Part shown: one piece after another, positions 25,231 through 28,887 of the stretch | How positions within the stretch are numbered: the stretch's first letter is position 1 | How the letters are laid out: every line of letters begins with the position of its first letter | DNA from: Bacillus gobiensis | GTDB taxonomy: Bacteria; Bacillota; Bacilli; Bacillales; Bacillaceae | Assembly: GCF_001278705.1 (NCBI RefSeq) | Contig: NZ_CP012600.1 | Span: 2,666,190-2,730,189, forward strand | Length of the DNA stretch: 64,000 nt | Direction: 5' to 3' | Translations under genes and position numbers: made by a program | Notes under the pieces: model-generated | Told to the model about the DNA's origin: nothing | Databases searched by the model: none | What the model saw: only the letters and a program-made list of their open reading frames with translations

Positions 25231-26405
25231 CTACTTCGGCGGCGGAGCATGCCTGACTATATGAAGGAATCCAAGCCCTGAATTGTTTAAGCTCTCCTGC
25301 CGTTTTCCTCTGAGATTTCGTTTCCAAACATGTCTTTACCAATGATTCCTTCAGCCACGCCATTAGCTGAGGCAAGTCCGTAGATTCCCATTTCCGATTT
25401 TTGCAGGATGTCGAAGCCTTTTCTGTTTTTGTAAGCGTCAATAGTATAGGTAGCGTCTACACCTTTTCGGCCACCCCAGCCGATCGCCGGGAAAAATCCA
25501 GCTGCCGCAAGTGCACCGGCTGTAACGCGGTCTGTCTCACTCAGCATTTGCTTGGTAACAGGGTCAATGCCCTGTGTTACTCGTACATAATCATAATAAC
25601 CTGAGAATTCTCCTGTAAAGTTGCAGGCAGCATCCCATGCTTTGTCCAGCAAAGCGCGGTATTCGAGTTCTTTTTGTTCCTTAACGAGACGCCTGGAATC
25701 CTCTTGCTCGTTTTTCATCATCAGGTAGTCGTTGTTGAGCTTTTTGGCCTCCACTCTCATTTGGAAAACGTCACTGTTGCGATAGGCAGTTGCGTTAAAG
25801 TGCAGCGGAGTGACTTGTCCATTCTTTTCCGTGGAAGCAAGCAGCTGCCGGTACAGCGCGGCAACAATCGACTCATCCTCTTCAAGCATTGAATATTCGC
25901 TTTTGAGGCTGCTGTCTAAGGAATTGATCTTCTCAATTGTTTCCGACCGATGTTGTTCTGCATCATTGAATGCGGAAGTAATCGGATATTTGGTAAATGC
26001 CTCGATTGGAACAAGATCATCAATCTTGTTAAGTGTTGCTTTTAATTCTGCCTGCTGCTCAGTCACGATTTTCTCTGAGACGTTGAGTCCAAAAGAAACA
26101 TCATCCTCTAAAAATGGCAAGTGCACCACCGTTTCTCCGGAAAGCTCATGCTCCTCAATGATACCGGAAATGCTTTTCATGAACGCTTCGTTTTTATCTA
26201 TTAAATCAAGCCAAGCGTTCACTACATCTACTTGCGCGCCATAAAATCCTTTAATCGCCTCTGCCCCTTTTCCTTCAAAGCCATCGAGTCCAATTAGATT
26301 TTGAAACGCTTTTTTTAACCGGACCATTTGATCCCTAAATTCAGAATATTCATTGATCCGTTCATTCATAGCTGATATTAAAGTTTTTGCTTCATATATT
26401 TTCAT
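25231..26405 (-). pseudogene. LXG-domain polymorphic toxin gene, C-terminus lost
   Basis: From ATG 26405 the frame encodes an LXG domain (KIYEAKTLISAMNERINEYS at the start, GFEGKGAEAIKGFYG near 50). A pretoxin-like linker follows (DYVRVTQGIDPVTKQMLSE, near 310) and runs into GKDMFGNEISEENGRRA before stopping at 25287. In another frame the expected continuation KRQESLNNSGLG is still visible, ending at a TAG at 25231. So a frameshift near 25300 removed the toxin part, and little of it is left in any frame. LXG toxins are exported by the type VIIb (Esx) system. No immunity gene and no LXG partner genes are present. Confidence 0.75.
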
Positions 26406-26788
26406 CATACCCACAAGATGCCCTTTCATTTTGGATTTTTCTGTTGGTTCATCTTGTTGTTTTTTGCCAAATTGGTTTCATATGGATAGTGTAAGGATAT
26501 TTAGACCAGGTTGGAATAGGTATTTTCTCCTTTTCAGAGGAAAAAGATTGGAAATTAAGCGGAAGAACAGATTAATTTACATTCTTTGACTGAACTTAGT
26601 GAACGATTTATTGTTGAATCCGGATTTGTGGGAGGAATTTAAAGGTTTAAAACAATTTTCATGTAAATTTCGTGTTAAGCAAGAGAAAAGATGTTCAAGG
26701 ATTTATTTTGCTTATCTATGATTCAACCAGTGTTTATCAAAAATGTATATTAAATGTGCCCTTCACGGACATTATAGAACGAAATGTA
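26406..26788. other. Non-coding stretch upstream of the LXG gene
   Basis: No gene seen. It contains the 19-base word shared with 20909-20927 (here 26470-26488). Confidence 0.4.
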
Positions 26789-26832: not shown

Positions 26833-26877
26833 TTAACGAAGAAGCTGTAAAACTCCTTGTGGTTGTTGGTTGGCTTG
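26833..26877 (-). other. hag: Second flagellin 3' end (probable downstream exon)
   Basis: The 15 codons from 26877 to the TAA at 26833 read QANQQPQGVLQLLR, a canonical flagellin C-terminus. They follow immediately after the predicted last G of the group I intron. If exon 1 ends after the GCT codon at 27240-27242, splicing would give MLAQANQQPQGVLQLLR, as in many Bacillus flagellins. The same number of codons with a similar peptide (QSNQMPKGVLQLLR) also ends the unspliced gene at 27195. Confidence 0.75.
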
Positions 26878-27194
26878 CTTTGCCGCTATGCCTTTCGGCG
26901 ATAGAATAGACTATATCTTCACCCATTTTCATGGGGCTGGGCACTTCGAATGATTTCTCATCCTACGAATCTCATTGCCATAGCTTTAAACTTTAGGCAG
27001 TGCATTCTAGTCGTTGAACCTTCCCCATCCTTTCGGAACAGGGGCTTGGCTGCTGATTATCCAATCTCTTCTGTTTTCAAACCCTCACACTTGCCGTTTC
27101 CAGCTATGCTGTGGTCAGAAAAGCTCTAAGGAAGTTCCAGCAATTCACCCAGTGATGATCTAATCCATTGCCGGACTAGACGCCCTGCAATCAA
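26878..27194 (-). ncRNA. Group I intron (catalytic core) within or after hag
   Basis: On the minus strand the conserved core elements occur in the correct order. Q (AATCAGCAGCCAAGC) is at 27044-27058. A P5 stem CCCC/GGGG caps a GAAA tetraloop. R (GGTTCAACGACTAGA) is at 27006-27020 and S (GAAGATATAGTC) at 26909-26920. P7 pairs GACTA (27008-27012) with TAGTC (26909-26913). P3 pairs GGCAAGTG with CACTGCC. A P9 hairpin CTATCGCC-GAAA-GGCATAG lies at 26886-26904. The probable terminal G is 26878. There is no homing-endonuclease frame. The 5' boundary is not settled: in frame it would fit after 27240, but I could not identify a convincing P1 guide pairing. Confidence 0.85.
27167..27191 (-). other. 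Hairpin just after the first flagellin stop
   Basis: ATTGC-A-GGGC, loop GTCTA, GTCC-G-GCAAT, four bases after the hag TAA. There is no T-tract, so it is probably part of the intron 5' region and not a terminator. Confidence 0.5.
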
Positions 27195-28091
27195 TTATCT
27201 AAGAAGTTGAAGCACTCCTTTAGGCATTTGATTGGATTGAGCCAACATTGCTTGTGCTGCTTGACCAAGAATAGAATTCTTCGTTTGACCCATCATTTCT
27301 TTCGCCATGTCTACGTCACGAATACGAGATTCAGCAGCTGTTAGATTTTCAGAAGATGTTCCCAGGTTGTTGATTGTGTGTTCTAGGCGGTTTTGGTTTG
27401 CACCTAATTTAGAACGTTCAGCAGAAACTTTATCAATTGCAGATTGAATTTTAGTTACCGCAGAAGCTGCTGAATCATGAGAAGATACATCTAGAGCTTG
27501 CTCAGTAATCGTACTGCTTGTTCCATCAGTAACTCCTAATTTGGCATCAGTACCAGTAGTGGTAATTCCTAGTGCACTTGCTCTCATATCAGCAATATCA
27601 AGGGATAAGCTTTGATTTTCGTTTGCACCAATTTGAAATTTAAGACTTTTAGTAGAATCTGTTGATCCATCCTTATCACCATTCAATAACTTTTGAGTAT
27701 TGAATTCTGTTGTATTACCAACACGGTTTATTTCAGAAGTAAGGGAGTTAATTTCTTTTTGAATTTCGCCACGGTCAGTATCTATATTTGTATCGTTACC
27801 ACCTTGAACAGCCAGTTCACGCATACGTTGAAGAATATCGTGAGTTTCGTTTAATGCTCCCTCAGCAGTCTGGATCAAAGAGATCCCGTCCTGTGCATTT
27901 CGAGAAGCTTGATCCAAACCACGAATTTGCCCACGCATTTTTTCAGAGATAGCTAGACCAGCAGCATCATCACCTGCACGATTAATACGAAGTCCGGAAG
28001 ATAATTTTTCCATTGATTTTGATTGAGCGTTAGAAGCTGCACCTAATTGTCGATGCGTATTCAGCGCCGCAATATTGTGATTAATTCTCAT
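27195..28091 (-). CDS. hag: Flagellin
   Basis: The product is 298 residues from ATG 28091, with AAGGAGG 12 bases upstream. The N-terminal D0/D1 (MRINHNIAALNTHRQLG, SSGLRINRAGDDAAGLAISE) and C-terminal D1/D0 (IRDVDMAKEMMGQTKNSILG, then QSNQMPKGVLQLLR) are intact. The central variable domain is short, as in B. subtilis. The flagellar filament subunit is exported through the type III apparatus. The reading described ends at a stop upstream of the group I intron core; splicing could replace the last 14 residues with those at 26833-26877. Confidence 0.93.
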   Translation of the reverse strand: MRINHNIAALNTHRQLGAASNAQSKSMEKLSSGLRINRAGDDAAGLAISEKMRGQIRGLDQASRNAQDGISLIQTAEGALNETHDILQRMRELAVQGGNDTNIDTDRGEIQKEINSLTSEINRVGNTTEFNTQKLLNGDKDGSTDSTKSLKFQIGANENQSLSLDIADMRASALGITTTGTDAKLGVTDGTSSTITEQALDVSSHDSAASAVTKIQSAIDKVSAERSKLGANQNRLEHTINNLGTSSENLTAAESRIRDVDMAKEMMGQTKNSILGQAAQAMLAQSNQMPKGVLQLLR

Positions 28092-28230: not shown

Positions 28231-28253
28231 ATCCTCACTTTTTTTGTGAGGAT
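28231..28253 (-). terminator. Terminator after csrA
   Basis: ATCCTCAC, loop of seven A, GTGAGGAT, then seven T on the minus strand. The csrA stop lies inside the hairpin. Confidence 0.85.
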
Positions 28254-28459
28254 AAGAGACTCAATAGATTGCCTGAGAGATTTGCTGCTCTGCTGTTCTC
28301 TTCCTGGATGGCGACGTAAATTTCTTTACGGTGGATGTCGATGTGCCTTGGGGCTTCGATGCCGATTTTGATTTGGTCGCCTTCGATGGCGATGATTTTA
28401 ATTTCAATGTCATCGCCGATTTGGATGCTTTCGTTTTTCTTTCTTGAGAGAACGAGCAT
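28235..28459 (-). CDS. csrA: Translational regulator CsrA
   Basis: The product is 74 residues. [20 protein letters not shown] and [16 protein letters not shown] are the family core with the RNA-contact residues. It dimerises, binds GGA-containing hairpins and represses flagellin translation. It starts 3 bases after the fliW stop. Confidence 0.96.
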
Positions 28460-28461
28460 GC

Positions 28462-28887
28462 TTAAGCACCTCCAATTAGGTGCTTTGTTTGATAGGCAGC
28501 GTCTTGCAGGATGACCTGCTTTGCCAGCTTGTTCTTACGATTGACGATGACCGGAGCTTTTAAGTTGGCCGTTGTTTTTTCAAACGGTTCTTCAATCGTT
28601 AATAGCACGATAACTTCGACGTCTTCTGTTGATTCCAGTTCCAGCATTTCTGTTGTAGCTTCATCCAGATCGAATTCATAGTCTTTAAAAAACAGAAAAG
28701 GGCTTGTTACGATGAAGGCAAGCTCCTCTGTCGACACCGATTGCAGGACTAGAAACGGTGAATCCTCGGATAACGGGAGGATGGCAAATTTCTTTTCATT
28801 TAAAAATCCGGGCAGACCGTTTTCAAAGGAGAGGATCTCCTCCTCGTGAATGGCGGTTTCACCATGGTATCTCGTTTGGATAATCAT
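28462..28887 (-). CDS. fliW: Flagellar assembly factor FliW
   Basis: The product is 141 residues. [18 protein letters not shown] and FVLQ-type core strands, then [21 protein letters not shown], are typical. FliW is held by flagellin or by CsrA in a partner switch: when flagellin is exported, free FliW sequesters CsrA and hag is translated. Confidence 0.94.

Follow-up and report, generated by a model that had tools for sequence, protein, structure and literature searches.

A group I intron near the end of a Bacillus gobiensis flagellin gene that may supply an alternative C-terminus to the unspliced mRNA

Introduction

Reports of group I introns in bacterial protein genes are few, and coupled translation has been put forward as one reason for this (PMC3984707). 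In the recA and nrdE introns described in the same source, an in-frame stop follows the upstream exon and is thought to aid folding of the intron RNA. Group I introns in the flagellin genes of thermophilic Bacillus and Geobacillus (Hayakawa and Ishizuka 2009, 2012) are cited in PMC3984707 and PMC4853749; according to the citing passage in PMC4853749, which places them in subgroup IA2, their splicing promotes motility at higher temperature. In Clostridioides difficile, a group I ribozyme under c-di-GMP control works on a ribosome-binding site (Lee et al. 2010, via PMC8987985). C.te.I1, a group II intron in a surface-layer gene of Clostridium tetani, is described as giving unspliced and spliced mRNAs that each encode an isoform (PMC3919590).

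The intron described here lies in hag, the flagellin gene of Bacillus gobiensis. With the introns of Hayakawa and Ishizuka it has in common that it is a group I intron in a flagellin gene, but the motility effect reported for those fits a non-functional unspliced form, and a second tail goes unmentioned in the citing passages of PMC3984707 and PMC4853749. The in-frame stop after the upstream exon is shared with the recA and nrdE introns as presented in PMC3984707. Like the C. difficile ribozyme, it is a host-adapted group I intron without an endonuclease that would affect translation, although the passage in PMC8987985 describes no coding tail. The nearest parallel in effect is C.te.I1, which in the account of PMC3919590 is a group II intron with four alternative splicing reactions and a shifted 5′ site, whereas hag has one group I intron and one alternative ending, and both endings are held alike. 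No description of the two-tail arrangement was found in the literature searched, a search that did not cover Hayakawa and Ishizuka 2009 and 2012 themselves. The arrangement would be a natural bacterial case of intron retention, with two selected, nearly equivalent protein ends coming from one gene.

Results and discussion

The hag locus and its intron

The window, by which we mean the whole 64,000-nt stretch analysed, carries hag on the minus strand (28091–26833), recognised as flagellin by profile search (Flagellin_N 172 bits, Flagellin_C 97 bits). Its upstream neighbours, csrA (28235–28459) and fliW (28462–28887), are also on the minus strand. The genome yielded no further flagellin: its sole other Flagellin_C match scores 26.6 bits (cut-off 23), and the gene is read as flgL-like. 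Downstream of hag (25287–26429, minus strand) is a gene with an LXG domain and a pre-toxin TG region (PF04740, PF14449), the product of which is presumably part of a secreted toxin, adjoining the flagellar genes.

The initial annotation had recognised the core of a group I intron on the minus strand and called for a covariance search. This search returned an RF00028 (group I intron) match at 27213–26886 of the minus strand that covers the whole model (1–253) with 81.8 bits (cut-off 50, E 2.9e-19), the sole RNA family at gathering score within the window. The intron interrupts hag between codon GCT, which ends at 27240, and codon CAA, which starts at 26877, 14 codons before the end of the gene. 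Intronless genes read uninterrupted GCN-ATG-YTN-GCN/CAR-GCN-AAY-CAR-CAR-CC (the slash marks the junction) in 65 of 80 family genomes, the window's own genome not being among them. The insert therefore extends from C27239 to G26878 (362 nt, minus strand), and P1 agrees on the 5′ border. The terminal G26878 directly precedes the 3′ exon in the window; a G was required here by the pattern used to find relatives, so the relatives are no independent test of it. No homing endonuclease is encoded, there being no ORF of at least 60 aa inside the 362 nt.

Two flagellin endings can be read from this layout. The 5′ exon (27240–28091, minus strand) contains the Flagellin_N and Flagellin_C matches and ends in AMLA at the GCT codon. 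The open frame (28091–27195) passes the intron border by 14 codons and a stop, so that the first 45 nt of the intron (27195–27239, minus strand) encode QSNQMPKGVLQLLR, hereafter tail 1, the ending used if the mRNA is unspliced. Directly behind G26878, the 3′ exon (26833–26877, minus strand) encodes QANQQPQGVLQLLR and a stop, hereafter tail 2, the ending used if it is spliced. The joined exons would encode AMLAQANQQPQGVLQLLR up to the stop, the same ending as in several relatives without this intron (L003, L013, L018, L019, L026), and the protein has 298 residues both unspliced and in its predicted spliced form. As already stated in the initial annotation, whose span of 26833–27242 corresponds to the intron and the second tail, there are two tails of 14 codons plus stop with 11 of 14 residues identical by an eye count; at the nucleotide level, 13 of 42 positions differ. 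Residues 2–5 set the tails apart, as does residue 7 (K for Q) in the window. The second hag exon will escape an annotation that relies only on open frames.

Distribution among relatives

A pattern scan of GTDB genomes, which required the sequence from P7 to the 3′ exon and placed no requirement on tail 1, gave at least 118 stretches. Among the matches listed are members of Metabacillus, Peribacillus, Sporosarcina, Exiguobacterium, Paenibacillus, Brevibacillus and Anoxybacillus, as well as Clostridium acetireducens, Caloranaerobacter, Thermohalobacter and Haloimpatiens, and in eight of the more distant members direct reading showed tail 1. Together with other loci, including family RF00028 matches, the set of relatives comprised 133 rows in 132 loci. 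To be parsed, a row had to show a stop at 45 nt of the intron and a GGG resembling the guide; 122 rows parsed into 117 distinct introns of 343–551 nt, which become 118 with L101, all related to one another and not independent. The 11 unparsed rows include L101, which has the tail and a different guide, six rows cut by the locus end and four without an intron 5′ end. Among the 118 distinct introns whose 5′ end is present, tail 1 is open in 117, the exception being L043, which has two stops in tail 1 and by eye looks like a gene remnant. Because the tail is conserved across 118 distinct introns, neither chance nor decay fits.

In a sample of the order, the 3′ junction pattern occurred in 64 of 397 genomes and 33 of 135 genera, and an RF00028 match was present in 39 of 80 family genomes. 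Within the genus, the intron DNA matched no genome but the window's own (1 of 44). The nearest of the 108 other aligned introns is 84.5% identical to it, which lends no support to a recent transfer of the intron by itself. The best ungapped identities of hag to flagellins of other genera are 0.842 for its 3′ part and 0.806 for its 5′ part, compared with at most 0.733 and 0.752, respectively, for 40 same-genus copies (31 of which end in QNVLQLLR). Given that hag is nearer to flagellins of other genera than to these copies, it may have arrived in the genome together with its intron.

Four loci (L054, L063, L109 and L110) contain only intron 3′ parts, without P1 and tail. In L109, from Neobacillus mesonae, a small ORF (MAVKHIPTGVV...) that has a ribosome-binding site of its own occupies the place of P1 and tail upstream of 7231, and the intron remnant stands behind an intact intronless flagellin gene. 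In L110 and L063, the intron 3′ fragments and a QANQQP exon lie in repeat-like surroundings, with more than one copy in L110; by eye, the 3′ part looks as though another element had copied it.

A predicted insurance exon

We consider it probable that the intron contains an insurance exon, by which the unspliced mRNA becomes productive, with the tail in the P1 loop replacing the C-terminus. The P1 loop would thus have been turned into a coding exon, a complete flagellin C-terminus and stop fitting within it, and ribosome and P1 would compete on the unspliced mRNA. A ribosome reaching the intron before its removal would open P1, read tail 1 and terminate at 27195, immediately ahead of the P1 3′ strand and the guide, so that full-length flagellin would be released and the ribozyme core would not be entered. 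Were the ribozyme to fold and splice first, the mRNA would carry tail 2, the ordinary C-terminus. Whatever the speed of splicing, the cost of the intron to its host would then be small, and this in the filament gene.

Cells make flagellin in great quantity, and the C-terminus of the protein is packed into the core of the filament. For these reasons a truncated flagellin would be harmful, which makes insurance the simplest interpretation of the tail. The intron suggests a route round the barrier of coupled translation, in that the unspliced state is itself made productive. Elsewhere in the family, 11 of 12 further group I loci have an unspliced frame, with endings such as ADQMG, QGGSR, NLC and EQAA.

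Selection on both tails

In 108 of 117 introns, codons 7–14 of tail 1 encode QGVLQLL and then R, Q or K; over all 117, this segment has 76 distinct nucleotide versions. In 116 sequences (without L043), pN/pS for these codons is 0.11 in frame versus 0.71 and 4.75 in the other frames, and 0.48 for codons 2–6. Changes were also counted by parsimony on a FastTree tree of the ribozyme cores of 116 introns, which includes L043 and leaves out L101 and L107 (exon 2 of the latter runs off its contig). On this tree, codons 8–13 of tail 1 underwent 159 changes, 157 of them synonymous, and codons 7–14 underwent 185 synonymous and 19 nonsynonymous changes, 17 of the 19 at codons 7 and 14. Codons 9–14 of tail 2, which lie outside the search pattern, underwent 130 changes (125 synonymous, 5 nonsynonymous). 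These values bear out the expectation of the initial annotation that both tails are selected.

The last residue changes to or from Gln on six branches in tail 1 and five in tail 2; all five tail-2 branches are also switch branches of tail 1, and two of the five are reversals. Gln ends both tails in 12 introns, tail 1 only in one, tail 2 only in none and neither tail in 103. Copying between the tails is unsupported, tail 1 differing from its own tail 2 at 6.62 of 24 nt and from all tail 2s at 6.66. Both tails thus appear to be maintained independently as protein. Tail 2 would be joined to the flagellin frame only via splicing, and the constraint on it implies that splicing occurs in nature; self-splicing is implied by the same selection on exon 2. 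Comparison with relatives likewise supports the two full-length products that the initial annotation had predicted.

We regard it as unlikely that the tails are functionally different isoforms and splicing a switch, responding for example to temperature or ribosome traffic, that alters the filament or the binding of an export partner. Residues 2–5 are mostly SNQM in tail 1 of the relatives and ANQQ in tail 2 (the latter required by the search pattern), and because of this difference the tails need not be equivalent; temperature-dependent splicing has also been reported for other flagellin introns (PMC4853749, citing Hayakawa and Ishizuka 2012). However, residues 2–4 are where P1 pairing restricts the codons, codons 1–6 of tail 1 vary between species (73 nonsynonymous changes on the tree), and the remainder of tail 1 is held like tail 2, R/Q swap included, which looks like equivalence rather than division of labour.

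Conservation of tail 1 for the RNA structure of P1, and not for translation, is very improbable. Tail 1 does lie within the P1 loop, and its codons 2–4 form a covarying helix, but codons 8–13 change almost only synonymously and across split codon boxes (Leu TTG, CTT, CTG and CTA; at codon 14, Arg AGA, AGG, CGA and CGG), the other frames lack such a pattern, and the last residue tracks that of tail 2. We give just as little credence to a dead intron with tail 2 left over, or to tail 2 as the end of a decayed second flagellin gene, the alternative that the initial annotation had raised. Remnants do exist in some genomes (L043, L054, L063, L109, L110); against this, the RF00028 match here is full, tail-2 codons 9–14 are under purifying selection though the intron separates them from the flagellin frame, no second flagellin was found, and the parsed introns are too short to have held one.

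P1, the guide sequence and the 3′ site

The initial annotation had predicted splicing after GCT (27240) and had seen no convincing P1 guide. P1 can now be located. Its exon strand GCU/C (27239–27242, minus strand; the slash, between 27240 and 27239, marks the splice site) pairs with GGGC within the internal guide sequence GGGCGU (27180–27185, minus strand), G27184 and U27240 forming a G.U pair. P1 is short, consisting of three exon pairs and C+1:G. Over the 118 distinct introns, U(-1).G and C(-2)-G are found in 118 of 118 and C(+1)-G in 117; position -3 is G with C in 114, G with U in three and U-A in L101, a compensatory change in which the codon before the intron is TCT, the guide GGGA and P1 accordingly UCU/ with GGGA. 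At position -4, a purine facing G makes a mismatch in 113 of 118. At the codons preceding the insertion site, 116 of 117 genes with the intron have YTR-GCT, versus 10 of 49 intronless copies, the latter taken from fetched loci, mostly of the window's own family.

P1 is prolonged by an extension helix, whose 5′ strand CAAUCAA (27228–27234, minus strand) lies inside tail 1 and whose 3′ strand UUGAUUG (27188–27194, minus strand) directly follows the tail-1 stop. It joins codons 2–4 of tail 1 to the bases after the stop, as AAUCAA:UUGAUU in the window and as GAAUAG:CUAUUC, AAAUAAC:GUUAUUU, ACAACA:UGUUGU, GAAUACA:UGUAUUC, CAAAU:AUUUG and others in relatives. A run of at least five Watson-Crick pairs is present in 104 of 118 introns, compared with 15% of shuffled spacers, and the run is below five in 14 of 117. 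The mean longest run over 117 introns is 5.93 with the intron's own partner, 4.70 (sd 0.09; maximum of 500 permutations 4.97) with permuted partners and 4.16 with partners from other strand classes; as the permutation test ignores relatedness, the 13 different classes of 5′ strand are the more direct argument. Two of these classes, CAGCAA and AACCAA, have a weak extension (mean 4.67). Because this helix covaries among relatives, splicing after GCT is well supported by comparison.

P1 was recovered neither by minimum-free-energy folding of the region (z -1.66; 7 of 100 shuffles as good) nor by RNAalifold on 109 introns; neither of the two can handle the pseudoknot of the group I core, hence the use of direct pair counts. 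A 5′ splice site at CCU/ (27222/27221), which would lengthen the flagellin by six residues and for which AUGCCU is able to pair with GGGCGU in the window, is scarcely credible at all and is refuted by the relatives, 32 of 117 of which have CCG, CCC, CCA, TCG or GCA as codon 6 and so lose the splice-site U while GCU and GGGC stay.

A hairpin also spans the 3′ splice site (26872–26884, minus strand), where bases preceding the terminal AAAG form pairs with an alanine codon in exon 2, GGC (26884–26882) with GCC (26874–26872). GGC:GCC and CGC:GCG covary at the third codon base, and the hairpin is fully paired in 106 of 117 introns (mean 2.81 of 3 pairs versus 2.32 in shuffles, maximum of 1000 shuffles 2.44). 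No conserved P10 pairing between guide and 3′ exon was recognised by eye.

A second flagellin intron and tmRNA

The relatives often carry a second group I intron upstream in the same flagellin gene, between RDVD and MAKEMM (L003, L005, L006, L008, L011, L012, L013, L014, L018, L019, L026 and others). Where both are present, it lies about 435–445 nt upstream of the 3′ exon of the hag-end intron. Its unspliced frame, of which 18 nt are intron-coded in 40 copies and 21 nt in six, ends in YALAA and a stop in 34 of 46 distinct copies, a count that leaves out four further matches without a readable 5′ part. All 12 remaining copies have related forms ending in Ala: YVLAA (4), YVLSAA (2), YDLAAA (2), and YAKAA, YVIAA, YVLSVA and YDLAVA (1 each). 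YALAA resembles the ssrA degradation tag, and among 16 tmRNA genes scanned in the family the tag ends in ALAA in 12 and AVAA in three, with one odd prediction; the three AVAA hosts (G072, G074, G075) carry YALAA introns, so that the match to their own tag is not exact. Changes at the second residue follow the partner strand, and since RNA pairing thus explains part of the sequence, coding selection on YALAA is not proven. We treat the ending as a lead towards a coded degradation tag.

Tentatively, and with more doubt than confidence, we propose that a bacterial intron can bear selected 5′ coding 'insurance' and that Bacillota flagellin genes hold two introns of this kind, in which the hag-end intron would replace the C-terminus and the RDVD/MAKEMM intron would add an ssrA-like YALAA tag for destruction of the truncated flagellin. 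If true, coded fail-safes would account for the survival of introns, in the face of coupled transcription and translation, in a gene that is heavily translated. In five genomes of the set (G051, G055, G057, G062, G065), sub-threshold group I intron matches overlap the 3′ end of the tmRNA match by 12 nt, as if these tmRNA genes held an intron.
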